The notes below the pieces were generated by a model that was given only the letters and a program-made list of their open reading frames with translations, did not search any database and had not been told where the DNA came from. A program made the position numbers and the translations under genes. 64,000 nucleotides of DNA from Rhodovulum marinum (lineage in GTDB: Bacteria; Pseudomonadota; Alphaproteobacteria; Rhodobacterales; Rhodobacteraceae), in NCBI RefSeq assembly GCF_004343075.1, contig NZ_SLXP01000002.1, forward strand, positions 310,001 through 374,000, given 5' to 3'. Of the stretch, positions 26,725 through 31,475 are shown one piece after another. The number at the start of each line of letters is the position of its first letter. The stretch's first letter is position 1.

Positions 26725-27723
26725 CTAATGCCCCTCCATGATCTTCGGCAGGCCCAGTTCGGCCCGGTCGACGGGACCGGCGGGCGCCTCGGTGCGGATC
26801 GCGACGCGCAGCTTGGCGGAGCGCGCGCGCGGGTTGGCGGCCAGTTCGGCCTCGTCGGGCGGGGTGGCCTTGCGGGTCAGCAGGGTAAAGCGCGGCTCTT
26901 CCTGCGGCTGTTCGGGGGCATACCGGCTGCCGCCGCCGCCCTGGCCCGCGCGCAGTTGCAGGAAGCGTTTGACGATCCGGTCCTCGATCGAATGGAAGGT
27001 CACGACCGCCAGCTTGCCGCCCGGCGCCAGCGCGCGTTCGGCGGCCTCAAGCCCCGCGACCAGCTGGCCCAGCTCGTCGTTCACCGCGATGCGGATCGCC
27101 TGGAAACTGCGCGTCGCGGGGTGGCTTTGGCCGGGTTTCTGGCGCGGCAGGCAGCGCGCGATCACCTCGGCCAGTTGCGCGGTGGTGACGATGGGCGCGA
27201 TGGCCCGCGCCGCCACGATCGCCCGCGCGATGCGGCGCGCGGCGCGCTCCTCGCCGTAATGGAACAGGATGTCGGCCAGCTCGCCCTCGGACGCGGCGTT
27301 CACCAGGTCGGCCGCCGACGGCCCGCTATCGCCCATCCGCATGTCCAGCGGCCCGTCCTTCTGGAACGAGAACCCGCGTTCCGCCCGGTCCAGCTGCATC
27401 GAGGACACGCCCAGGTCCAGCACGACGCCATCCAGCGGCCCGCCCGCGATCCGGTCCAGGTCGGAAAACGTGCCCTCGACCAGCCGCAGCCGGTCGCCAT
27501 AGGCCTCGGCCCAGCCCTCGGCCATCTCGAACACGCTGGGGTCGCGGTCCACGCCGATCACGCGGTCCGCCCCGGCGTCAAGCAGACCGCGCGCATAGCC
27601 CCCCGCCCCGAACGTGCCGTCCAGCCAGATGCCCGACACGGGCGAGACCGCCTCGAGCAGCGGGCGCAAGAGGACGGGGATATGCGGCGGGTCGGTCGGG
27701 GAAAGGCGTTCTGCACCGGCCAT
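26725..27723 (-). CDS. rsmH: 16S rRNA (cytosine-1402-N4)-methyltransferase RsmH
   Basis: SAM-dependent methyltransferase (MraW) modifying C1402 in the 16S rRNA decoding site. In 332 residues it begins with [13 protein letters not shown], has the SAM motif [14 protein letters not shown] near residue 35, [10 protein letters not shown], and the conserved [12 protein letters not shown] near residue 255. Second gene of the dcw operon, 3 bases after mraZ, as in most bacteria. Confidence 0.97.
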
Positions 27724-27726
27724 CCC

Positions 27727-28230
27727 CTAGTCCTCCAGCGATCCATCGAGAAGGGACGCCACGTCGAAATCGGGCGGCAGTTCCTCGAACCGGGCGATGG
27801 CGCGGGCCATTTCCTCGGTTTCGTAGGTGTCGGGGTTCCAGATGCGGAATTTCTCGCCCGAGCCGACGAACAGCGCCTCGTCGGTCAGCCCGATCTTTTC
27901 GCGCAGCTTCTGCGGCAGCACGATGCGGCCGTCATTGTCGACCTCGGTGGGGTGCGACTGGACGTTGAAGGTCATCTCCAGCATCTGCCGTTCGATGGAC
28001 CCGCGCGGCTTGGACTCGATCTTGCGGTCGATCTCCTCGATCGCCTCCATCGTGTAGCATTCCAGGAACTTGCGGCGCGGATCGCCGTAGACGATCACCA
28101 CCTGGGGGCGCAAACCGTCGGTCCAGTCGGGATCGCCCGCCTCGAGGATGCGCCGGAACAGGGACGGAATCGATACCCGTCCCTTGGCATCCACCTTGTG
28201 GCGGCTTTCGCCTCTGAACCTGCGCGCCAC
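27727..28230 (-). CDS. mraZ: Transcriptional regulator MraZ
   Basis: DNA-binding protein that represses its own operon in E. coli. The 167-residue protein has two SpoVT/AbrB-type half domains: RHKVDAKGRVSIPSLFR near residues 8-24 and HPTEVDNDGRIVLPQKLR near 93-110. It is first in the dcw operon, and a phased array of TGGGA-like boxes lies 240-314 bases upstream, where MraZ would be expected to bind. The long distance from array to ATG implies a long leader. Confidence 0.95.
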   Translation of the reverse strand: MARRFRGESRHKVDAKGRVSIPSLFRRILEAGDPDWTDGLRPQVVIVYGDPRRKFLECYTMEAIEEIDRKIESKPRGSIERQMLEMTFNVQSHPTEVDNDGRIVLPQKLREKIGLTDEALFVGSGEKFRIWNPDTYETEEMARAIARFEELPPDFDVASLLDGSLED

Positions 28231-28810: not shown

Positions 28811-29884
28811 TCAGGCCATCCCGCCGCCGATCAGGCGGGCGGCGATATGGGCATAGGCCTCGGCCGCGGGCCCCTCGCCCAGCGCCACGGGCCTGCCCGC
28901 GTCGCCCGCCTCGCGCACCTCCAGCGCCAAAGGCAGCGCCCCCAGAAGCGGCACGCCCAGTTTCTCGGCCTCGGCGGCGACACCGCCATGGCCGAAGATA
29001 TGCGCCTCGTGCCCGCAATTGGGGCAGACATAGGTGGACATGTTCTCGACCAGGCCCAGAACCGGCGTCTTGAGCTTGGCGAACATGTCGATGGCCTTGC
29101 GCGCATCCAGCAACGCCACGTCCTGGGGCGTGGACACCACGACCGCGCCGCTCAGCTTGGTGCGCTGGCACAGGGTCAGCTGGATATCGCCGGTGCCGGG
29201 CGGCAGATCGACGATCAGCACGTCGAGCGGCCCCCAGTTCACCTGGGTCAACAGTTGTTGCAGCGCCCCCATCAGCATCGGGCCGCGCCAGATCACCGCC
29301 TGCCCCTCGTCCAGCATCAGCCCGATCGACATCATGGTGACGCCATGGGCCACGACCGGTTCGATCGTCTTGCCATCGGGCGAGGCGGCGCGGCGGTCGA
29401 CCCCCATCATGCGCGGCTGCGAGGGGCCATAGATATCGGCGTCCAGCAGACCCACCCGGCGCCCCTGCCGGGCCAGCGCGACGGCCAGGTTGCTGGCCAC
29501 GGTGGACTTGCCCACGCCCCCCTTGCCCGAGCCCACCGCCAGGATGCGGTCGATGCCGGCGGGGTTCTCGGGGCCGGCCTGGGCGGTGGGGTGGCGGCCG
29601 ATCTTCAGCCCGCCCTCGGGCGGGGCCTTGGGCGCGGGGCCGTGCGCGGTCAGCACGGCGGACACCTTGGCCACGCCGTCCATCGCCTGCACCGCGGCCT
29701 GCGCAGCGGCGCGCAGCGGCTCCATCGCGGGGGCCTGCGCGGCGTCGGGCGCCTCGATCACGAAGCGCACCGCGTCCCCCTCGACGCTCAGCGCCCGCAC
29801 CATGTCGCGCGAAACCAGGTCGCCCCCGTCCGGCAGCGCGATTCGGGACAGGGTATCGAGCACGGCATCGCGGGTGACGGGCAT
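28811..29884 (-). CDS. mrp: Mrp/ApbC family iron-sulfur carrier ATPase
   Basis: P-loop ATPase that carries and delivers Fe-S clusters. The 357-residue protein has an N-terminal FeS-assembly domain (DUF59/MIP18-like, about residues 1-85), a linker, then the deviant Walker A motif GKGGVGKST near residue 120, DIYGPSQPRMMG, DLPPGTGD and the CPNCG cluster-binding pair near residue 280. It is a single gene with its own downstream terminator, upstream of and separate from the dcw operon. Confidence 0.95.
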   Translation of the reverse strand: MPVTRDAVLDTLSRIALPDGGDLVSRDMVRALSVEGDAVRFVIEAPDAAQAPAMEPLRAAAQAAVQAMDGVAKVSAVLTAHGPAPKAPPEGGLKIGRHPTAQAGPENPAGIDRILAVGSGKGGVGKSTVASNLAVALARQGRRVGLLDADIYGPSQPRMMGVDRRAASPDGKTIEPVVAHGVTMMSIGLMLDEGQAVIWRGPMLMGALQQLLTQVNWGPLDVLIVDLPPGTGDIQLTLCQRTKLSGAVVVSTPQDVALLDARKAIDMFAKLKTPVLGLVENMSTYVCPNCGHEAHIFGHGGVAAEAEKLGVPLLGALPLALEVREAGDAGRPVALGEGPAAEAYAHIAARLIGGGMA

Positions 29885-30054
29885 TTGGGCCTCCTTGGGG
29901 GTGATTGGGTTAACCTCTTACTTGTGCACCGGCGCGGCAAGCGCAAGATTGTTCGCACGGTGCCGGATTTCGCGGCAGCGGGGCGCAGGGCGCCCAGAAT
30001 TACGTCAGCAAGACTTATGCATTTTCTGCATGGCGGCAATTCACATGCGGACCA

Positions 30055-30082
30055 TTGTGCATCCGCAGCATTTGGCTATCTT
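30055..30082 (+). promoter_or_regulatory. Candidate promoter for the stem-loop RNA array
   Basis: TTGTGC at 30055-30060 and TATCTT at 30077-30082 with 16 bases between. Start expected near 30089, about 78 bases before the first stem-loop. No gene lies between; the 29885-30054 stretch holds nothing else I recognise. A heat-shock or stress sigma factor is equally possible and cannot be told apart here. Confidence 0.35.
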
Positions 30083-30166
30083 CAATTCAACGGCGCGCGG
30101 CACGGTCCGCGTATCGGGATCGCCAAGGGCCGCGACGGTGGCAAGAGGCAGCCCGTAAAGCCTTGG

Positions 30167-30203
30167 AAAAGGGAAACCCCTCCTCCTCCCTGGGTTTCCT
30201 TTT
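30167..30203 (+). ncRNA. CCUCCUCCC stem-loop RNA 1 (CcsR-like)
   Basis: An 8-bp stem, GGAAACCC / GGGTTTCC, plus an A4/T4 extension across a one-base bulge. It displays CCTCCTCCC (30182-30190) in its 12-base loop and ends in TTTT. The loop is anti-Shine-Dalgarno in sequence, the hallmark of the CcsR (cuckoo) RNAs of Rhodobacter sphaeroides. Strand follows from the motif. Confidence 0.7.
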
Positions 30204-30206
30204 ATC

Positions 30207-30240
30207 GCGGCGGCACCGACCTCCTCCCTGGTGTCGCCGC
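30207..30240 (+). ncRNA. CCUCCUCCC stem-loop RNA 2 (CcsR-like)
   Basis: An 11-bp stem, GCGGCGGCACC / GGTGTCGCCGC, with a single G-U pair. The 12-base loop carries CCTCCTCCC at 30220-30228. It starts 4 bases after the first stem-loop. Confidence 0.75.
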
Positions 30241-30273
30241 ACATTTTCGACGGAACCGCACGGCTCCGACAGT

Positions 30274-30309
30274 TACGGCGGGCGTCTCCTCCTCCCTGAC
30301 TCCGCCGTA
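30274..30309 (+). ncRNA. CCUCCUCCC stem-loop RNA 3 (CcsR-like)
   Basis: A perfect 8-bp stem, TACGGCGG / CCGCCGTA, with a 20-base loop holding CCTCCTCCC at 30288-30296. The 33 bases before it (30241-30273) are less structured, so the units may be cut apart after transcription, as in R. sphaeroides. Confidence 0.7.
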
Positions 30310-30316
30310 GTATGGA

Positions 30317-30360
30317 ACGGCGGCACCTACCTCCTCCCAGGTGCCGCCGTTTCCCTTTTC
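30317..30360 (+). ncRNA. CCUCCUCCC stem-loop RNA 4 with terminator tail (CcsR-like)
   Basis: A perfect 12-bp stem, ACGGCGGCACCT / AGGTGCCGCCGT, has the ten-base loop ACCTCCTCCC (motif at 30330-30338). It is followed by TTCCCTTTTC and is the strongest stem of the four, so it probably doubles as the terminator of the array. It lies 27 bases from the convergent Hint gene stop. Confidence 0.75.
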
Positions 30361-30386
30361 CGGACCATCAAAACGGGGTTGTGCGC

Positions 30387-31475
30387 CTAGCGCGGGTCCA
30401 GTGCCGCATCCGCGGCATCGGCCATGGCCGCCACCGGCAGGACGGCGGGGCGCGCGGACGCGCGGGACGGGCCGAACAGCGCGCGCGCCTCGTAGCTGCG
30501 CAGGATCGGGCGGGCGGCCTCGAACGGTTCGTCGCCGGCGGGGGTGAAATCCAGTTCGGGGAAATGGGTGGCGATCTCGTCGCGCGCCTCGGAATCCAGC
30601 GCGCGGCGCGCGACATCGCCCAGGTAAAGGCTTTCGCAGGCCACGCCCTCGGCCAGCACCAGTTCGTGACGTTCGAACAGCAGGTGGACATAGCGCACCA
30701 TCGGCCGTTCCACGATCGCCGCGCCCCCCACCCCGGCCATGGCCATGGCCCGCGCCGAGACCAGGACCTCGGGCGCGGCGAACATCATTTCCGCCATCGC
30801 CGAGGCATGCAGCACCCGGTGCTGTTGCGACAGGACCAGCGGCCGGTCATTGCCCAGCGCGCCCGGCGGGAATTCCACCGGCGCCATCGGGCCGGTGCCG
30901 CGGGTGACGCTTTGGCCCACCCACAACAGCATCTGCGGCCCGTGGTCGACGGTTTCCACCATCATGCCGGGCACCAGGCTGGCCGCGCGCACCGGGCCGC
31001 GCGGCGTGGCGATCATCGTCTCGGCCTCGAAACAGATCACCGGGGCGGAATATTCGGTGTTCGGGTCGCGGTCGTAGACGTAGAACCCCGGATTGTCGGA
31101 CGGCGTGTAGTTGTCCCAGTACCATTGTTCCAGGTCGAATGTAGGCGACCAGACCACCTGGACCAGGTCGCCGTTTTCATCCGTGCCCTCGAACACCACG
31201 GCATAACCGGGGGCGAAATCGATCTCGTCCGAGCGGATCACCACCGCATCGGTCAGCGTGGCCGAGTGCGCGCCGCCAAAGGACACCTCGTAGACATCGC
31301 CCACCTCGAACGTATAGGGGTCGGGGTCGCCCTCTTTCGAGGTGATGACCAGGTCCTTGGTCCCGTTCGGCGGATAGTCGAATTGCGACGTCCCGGCGCC
31401 GCCAACATTGTTGTTGACGTTGTCGCCCGTGGACGCGGCGAATTCGGTATCTACGGCGTTGAACGTGACGATCAT
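30387..31475 (-). CDS. Hint-domain (Hedgehog/intein-type) protein
   Basis: 362 residues. The first 145 form an acidic, glycine- and asparagine-rich beta-type region with no cysteine and no signal peptide. A Hint domain starts at Cys148 (VICFEAETMIATPRGPV) and includes the LVPGMMVETVDHG and LVLSQQHRVL motifs seen in the many Hint proteins of Rhodobacteraceae. The family is often found in secreted, calcium-binding or adhesin-like proteins and may self-cleave at the cysteine; function here is unknown. It converges on the stem-loop RNA array. Confidence 0.85.
   Translation of the reverse strand: MIVTFNAVDTEFAASTGDNVNNNVGGAGTSQFDYPPNGTKDLVITSKEGDPDPYTFEVGDVYEVSFGGAHSATLTDAVVIRSDEIDFAPGYAVVFEGTDENGDLVQVVWSPTFDLEQWYWDNYTPSDNPGFYVYDRDPNTEYSAPVICFEAETMIATPRGPVRAASLVPGMMVETVDHGPQMLLWVGQSVTRGTGPMAPVEFPPGALGNDRPLVLSQQHRVLHASAMAEMMFAAPEVLVSARAMAMAGVGGAAIVERPMVRYVHLLFERHELVLAEGVACESLYLGDVARRALDSEARDEIATHFPELDFTPAGDEPFEAARPILRSYEARALFGPSRASARPAVLPVAAMADAADAALDPR

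Follow-up and report, generated by a model that had tools for sequence, protein, structure and literature searches.

An mrp-linked CcsR-type small RNA array in Rhodovulum marinum, with apparent loss of the co-transcribed ccaF1 gene

The closest described systems are three groups of RNAs with conserved hairpin loops. The CcsR1-4 RNAs of R. sphaeroides (Rfam RF02791, the "CIN1" cuckoo locus) carry CCUCCUCCC in their hairpin loops and follow a co-transcribed DUF1127 gene, ccaF1 (RSP_6037), from a promoter reported to be RpoHI/RpoHII-dependent (PMC10253847, PMC3320616). The CIN1 RNAs are matured to small RNAs in an RNase E/CcaF1-dependent way. CcaF1 is reported to help in this maturation, and to interfere with it when in excess. 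Other DUF1127 proteins work via protein contacts, a duality of roles that PMC12501420 describes in its discussion as an "intriguing puzzle". In rhizobia, NfeR1/ar14 provides earlier examples of CCUCCUCCC hairpin RNAs that stand alone (PMC10746234, PMC7143759). NfeR1 of Sinorhizobium meliloti (RF02344) has three hairpins with identical anti-Shine-Dalgarno loops, a sigma-70 promoter (CTTAGAC-N17-CTATAT) and, at -72 to -60, a TGCA-N6-GCAT motif described as an LsrB-type LysR box (PMC10746234). The third group is the cuckoo RNA family (Reinkensmeier and Giegerich 2015), in which a conserved loop sits on hairpins with unconserved helices, and which is given as 2-4 hairpins (PMC4504443).

Here we analyzed a 64,000-nucleotide stretch of the Rhodovulum marinum genome (the window), which contains an array of four such hairpins at 30171-30351, on the + strand only. 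The features of the locus are as follows.

26725-27723, - strand: rsmH (Pfam), dcw cluster, beyond mrp
27727-28230, - strand: mraZ (Pfam), start of the dcw cluster, beyond mrp
28811-29884, - strand: mrp/apbC Fe-S carrier gene (Pfam PF10609, E 1.2e-99), divergent from the array and marking the locus
30018-30031, + strand: TGCA-N6-GCAT palindrome, putative LysR-type (LsrB-like) box, centred some 64 nt ahead of the predicted transcription start
30055-30081, + strand: putative promoter, with TTGTGC at 30055-30060, inner GCAGCA at 30065-30070 and CTATCT at 30076-30081
30082-30170, + strand: unconserved leader; aligned as a gap where L092 and L099 carry their DUF1127 frames, the position of ccaF1 in relatives
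30171-30200, + strand: hairpin 1, CCUCCUCCC in loop, sequence almost invariant across the genus
30207-30240, + strand: hairpin 2, CCUCCUCCC in loop, paired with hairpin 1 as the CcsR1-model unit 30166-30245
30273-30310, + strand: hairpin 3, CCUCCUCCC in loop, stem the most variable of the four
30316-30351, + strand: hairpin 4, CCUCCUCCC in loop, with hairpin 3 the second CcsR1-model unit, 30271-30355
30350-30359, + strand: T-rich stretch following hairpin 4, probable terminator
30387-31475, - strand: Hint-domain protein gene (Pfam PF13403, E 1.3e-35), downstream and convergent with the array

The 64 kb window has four exact copies of CCTCCTCCC, each on the + strand and within 30182-30338, against a mean of 0.84 per shuffled window, and 2/100 shuffles reach four at any position. 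A genome listing of 81 CTCCTCCC places shows no other cluster of four. Folding of 30085-30365 gives -131.8 kcal/mol, compared with -109.0 (sd 5.5) for shuffled sequences (z -4.2), and 0/200 shuffles fold as well. When the window's stems were imposed on the 16 genus genomes, 140/144, 187/192, 160/204 and 189/201 cells were paired for hairpins 1-4. With the 3' arm shifted by a single base, 101-103, 51-57, 76-80 and 61-85 cells remained paired, respectively, and with a two-base shift 68-69, 65-86, 73-75 and 50-94. Pairs changed on both sides numbered 0, 3, 9 and 5, versus 0-1, 0, 1-5 and 0-1 in the slid controls; these were counted by alignment column, as counting from the loop outward inflates them via register shifts. 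Hairpin 1, nearly invariant, shows no covariation, and the double changes of hairpin 3, which is weaker and less well kept, have a background (1-5 in its slid versions). The motif count, fold z-score and stem conservation thus bear out the four hairpins with one shared loop motif that a first-pass annotation of this DNA had recorded. Its description of the stems as unrelated does not hold for hairpins 2 and 4, both of which carry CGGCGGCACC in the 5' arm. The last unit, to which it assigned a strong terminator, is followed by a T-rich stretch; no terminator-like site passed a simple scan, which admits loops of 3-8 only; the hairpin loops here are larger. An open reading frame, 30055-30390, overlaps the array.

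At curated cut-offs, Rfam returned two tRNAs only in the window, and CcsR1 and ar14 emerged in a permissive search alone. CcsR1 (RF02791) aligned at full length to 30166-30245 (56.2 bits, E 3.7e-13) and to 30271-30355 (40.7 bits, E 1.4e-8), both under its curated cut-off of 65.3 bits. Ar14 (RF02344) scored 50.7 bits (E 2.1e-8, cut-off 58.8), with a 29-base stretch aligned to one model position, and is exceeded by CcsR1 on the array. This covariance search agrees, at scores below the curated cut-offs, with the earlier assignment to a CcsR/cuckoo type. Since the CcsR1 model spans two hairpins, the four hairpins correspond to two CcsR-like units rather than to CcsR1-4 as first read. The locus resembles that of CcsR1-4/ccaF1 in its CCUCCUCCC loops, its two-hairpin unit, a promoter ahead of the operon and an mrp-linked site as in Rhodobacter relatives; it differs in having two units only, a score under the Rfam cut-off and no DUF1127 gene upstream in its transcript. 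L073 of Rhodobacter and L081 of Xinfangfangia each have eight motifs (four pairs), Rhodobacter L047 has six (three pairs), and 30 family array loci have 3 to 26 exact motifs on the array strand. Unlike cuckoo RNAs as given in PMC4504443, these relatives can be far longer. Two long arrays, L017 (G165) with 26 exact motifs and L030 (G272) with 14, contain near-identical repeated blocks, pointing to recent tandem duplication.

The window's mrp protein shares 91% identity with its Rhodovulum euryhalinum counterpart, 84-85% with the proteins from R. bhavnagarense and R. adriaticum, and 73% with the one from R. robiginosum. In papers on R. sphaeroides, the CcsR RNAs are numbered RSs0680a-d and the dcw-leader sRNA UpsM RSs0682, which fits the mraZ/rsmH/dcw neighborhood of the window. 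From this numbering and from Rhodobacter L047 and L073, we infer that the R. sphaeroides CcsR locus is also mrp-linked.

We next consider how often the DUF1127 gene accompanies the array. Of 41 mrp loci retrieved, nine with titles from other groups were dropped (L071, L072, L074-L079, L083) and 32 from Rhodobacteraceae were read. At least two exact motifs lie divergent from mrp in 29/32, the exceptions being L057 (where the sequence ends 814 bp upstream of mrp), L063 and L067. In 24 of these 29 loci a ccaF1-like DUF1127 gene separates mrp from the array, including the ten loci from which the DUF1127 HMM was built and which match by construction. The five array loci lacking it at mrp are four from Rhodovulum (L044, L045, L049, L070) and L052, a Rhodobacter MAG with the promoter and two exact motifs upstream of mrp and a short open frame of different sequence where DUF1127 is expected. 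L063 has DUF1127 and no array. A pattern of three spaced motifs, applied to one genome per genus, was found in 106/295 family genomes (reversed pattern, 10/295); it misses the window genome, where the middle gap is 60 nt. In the 30 other-genus array loci read out of these 106 matches, a DUF1127 frame precedes the last motif in 29 and the first motif in 28, and in L020 it is inside the array. One locus from another genus, L015 (G092), has the same promoter and an array without DUF1127, with an mraZ frame (72% identity, 54 residues) and no mrp in its 3.1 kb, and is a possible independent loss. Reciprocally, L221 (G048:C12:243000-245300) has a CcaF1-type DUF1127 gene and the promoter, with no TCCTCCC motif over the following 600-900 nt.

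In the window, no DUF1127 was detected in six frames by HMM over 2.5 kb upstream of mrp at E up to 10, as the first-pass annotation had stated. The array is present at mrp in 16/16 genus genomes, and DUF1127 is present at this locus in two (G303, G298), with Pfam PF06568 places agreeing independently. In the alignment, the promoter block precedes DUF1127 in G303 and G298; in the remaining 14 genomes it is followed directly by the leader and hairpin 1. By sequence comparison, then, the window holds the standard mrp-linked CcsR locus from which the DUF1127 gene appears to have been lost, loss being the simple reading because other-genus relatives mostly have the gene. The genus tree (mrp plus UvrD) is weakly supported inside, with values of 13-58 near the two genomes that keep DUF1127; it would imply three losses as printed and fewer if these two are basal. 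The annotation was right that the promoter leads straight into the array, but by mrp position and aligned promoter this is the same locus as in DUF1127-bearing relatives rather than an unrelated stand-alone one. Nor is a stand-alone array a new arrangement, as NfeR1/ar14 already has it. CcsR-type RNAs are likewise known; what differs is an array with the promoter directly ahead and ccaF1 missing in most Rhodovulum-group genomes. Among the titles and abstract starts retrieved on CcsR, cuckoo RNA, CUCCUCCC sRNA and Rhodovulum small RNA, none concerns a CcsR locus without ccaF1; Reinkensmeier 2015 (PMC4615179) and Gruetzner 2021 (PMC8034643) may describe one.

The promoter-like sequence at 30055 is conserved in all 16 genus genomes, where the alignment shows an invariant ATTGTGCA-N3-GCAGCA and a -10 of TAT-N-T. 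By analogy with R. sphaeroides it would be of RpoH type, with transcription predicted to start at about 30088; no sigma-70-type promoter passed a simple scan. The palindrome at 30018-30031 belongs to a sequence block that the genus alignment shows to be conserved. The rhizobial NfeR1 promoter carries the same motif at a similar position. TGCR-N6-GCAY lies 36-37 nt before the TTG of the -35 in 78/82 array promoters, drawn from four sets that partly share organisms and in which the promoter pattern matched 20/41, 16/16, 24/30 and 22/29 loci; mononucleotide shuffles gave 0.0025 per upstream. A putative NfeR1-like box of the TGCA-N6-GCAT type ahead of array promoters is a new point, and this shared LysR-type box may be a control input for CcsR besides RpoH.

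Five DUF1127 places occur in the window genome, and their 3 kb loci contain no array and one lone CTCCTCCC only. A further feature was relevant here:

G000:C5:14781-14993: CcaF1-like gene, 71 aa, upstream of tRNA-Gly (TCC)

Relatives of this gene occur in six of the 16 genus genomes, each upstream of tRNA-Gly (TCC), and 6/6 of these tRNA-Gly-linked genes have a TGCR-N6-GCAT box 36 nt before TTG[T/C]GC. The composite pattern occurs at 20 distinct places in the 16 genomes (24 rows, 4 repeats), 16 at array loci and 4 before the CcaF1-like gene; it misses that gene in G301 and G309, and neither it elsewhere in the 16 genomes nor its reversed control was found. A stricter version gave 17 places, the 16 arrays and one CcaF1-like gene. 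The shared composite promoter suggests a split, co-regulated operon. Of 29 loci retrieved from other genera with the C5 protein, 24 show two or more TCCTCCC motifs in the 900 nt that follow; those of L176 are 735 nt apart. Six of the 14 array-only genomes, the window genome included, have the tRNA-Gly-linked gene. G299 has a CcaF1-type DUF1127 (E 6.3e-16); neither the box and TTGTGC promoter nor an array or a tRNA lies close to it. In the seven others no CcaF1-type protein was recognized among 17 DUF1127 places, judged by score and sequence. In a DUF1127 tree that left out the RSP_0557-type paralogue of R. sphaeroides, the tRNA-Gly-linked proteins fall inside the array-linked group (supports 0.88-0.91); a zero-support node lies between, so either relocation or paralogy would fit. 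CcaF1-type genes also precede tRNA-Gly (TCC) in two genome groups (L195-L200), with two clearly different tRNA-Gly genes and different gene contexts.

We tentatively propose, as a possibility we would not yet favor, that in Rhodovulum the sRNA was split from its RNA-binding protein when ccaF1 left the CcsR operon. In 6/14 array-only species, the tRNA-Gly-linked CcaF1-type gene with the same box and TTGTGC promoter would keep RNA and protein co-regulated in trans; in the 7/14 where no CcaF1-type protein was found, the CcsR RNAs would therefore mature and act without it. The box would place CcsR and NfeR1 under related LysR-type control across Alphaproteobacteria.

The complement of the loop, GGGAGGAG, lies 3-9 nt before an ATG at 26 genome places, versus 3 for the reversed pattern, an excess that does not show regulation because GGGAGGAG is a strong Shine-Dalgarno sequence, expected of any strongly translated gene. 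Pfam was run on 25 of the 26 (L273, a 16-residue frame, was dropped) and gave the following candidate targets, each with GGGAGGAG before the ATG.

L271, L276, L286, L288: four solute-binding proteins
L272: RuBisCO large chain, also above the NCBIfam cut-off
L274, L275: 2Fe-2S small subunit of CO-dehydrogenase/aldehyde-dehydrogenase type and a nearby XdhC/CoxI protein
L281, L290, L291: three AMP-forming ligases
Others, among them a serine dehydratase and a GMC oxidoreductase

Four candidates (L269, L282, L287, L289) had no Pfam family. Genes for a large and an FAD subunit of this enzyme type come after the 2Fe-2S gene; "CO dehydrogenase" is a family-level label only, as neither the Fe-S nor the large subunit reaches the cut-off for an NCBIfam name. 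For this gene alone, 15 close sequences from 14 genomes (its own included) were compared: GGGAGGA is present in 15/15 and the full GGGAGGAG in 6/15, and some paralogues (L310-L313) also carry GGGAGG. The candidates resemble the roles reported for CcsR (C1 metabolism) and for NfeR1 (transporters).

Taken together, we consider it highly probable that the window contains an mrp-linked CcsR (cuckoo-type) sRNA locus of two two-hairpin units that has lost its co-transcribed ccaF1, and whose RNA, made under stress, blocks Shine-Dalgarno sequences with its loops. From the conserved stress-type promoter with its upstream LysR-type box, transcription would probably run from near 30088 to hairpin 4 and be induced by stress. 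The RNA may be processed in the linker between the hairpin pairs and, cut or whole, would expose four CCUCCUCCC loops able to pair with GGGAGGAG-like Shine-Dalgarno sequences, so that translation of metabolic and transport mRNAs would be blocked. The C5 CcaF1-like protein, with the same composite promoter, may help in trans.

An RNA that instead soaks up an RNA-binding protein (such as Hfq or a DUF1127 protein) or ribosomes, with no specific mRNA pairing, would suit the many identical loops on freely varying stems and the wide range of motif numbers in the family. We regard this as unlikely, since NfeR1, whose loops have this sequence, silences mRNAs through pairing (PMC10746234), and in R. 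sphaeroides the flhR mRNA is a reported target of CcsR RNAs (PMC8307010). Quite unlikely, too, is an NfeR1/ar14-like stand-alone sRNA under LysR-type control that does not descend from a ccaF1-CcsR operon and responds to nutrient status instead of RpoH stress. The ar14 match, the placement of the TGCA-N6-GCAT box, the hypervariable stems and the absence of a protein gene all recall NfeR1; however, the window has four hairpins in two pairs rather than three, CcsR1 outscores ar14, and position and promoter match those of DUF1127-bearing loci in the genus and family. A section of PMC11975290 is titled "LsrB is a LTTR unique to Rhizobiales", and the protein binding the window box would therefore differ. 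That the array is a degenerating remnant, non-functional once ccaF1 was gone, seems very improbable. Four hairpins against the higher motif counts of L073, L081 and L047, and the weaker hairpin 3, could be read this way, but the array is retained in every genus genome with its stems paired and its promoter conserved.

A CcsR-type locus that has lost its ccaF1 gene thus remains the preferred reading. Rhodovulum species with the RNAs but without the operon ccaF1, beside two with both, would offer a natural test of which CcsR functions need CcaF1.
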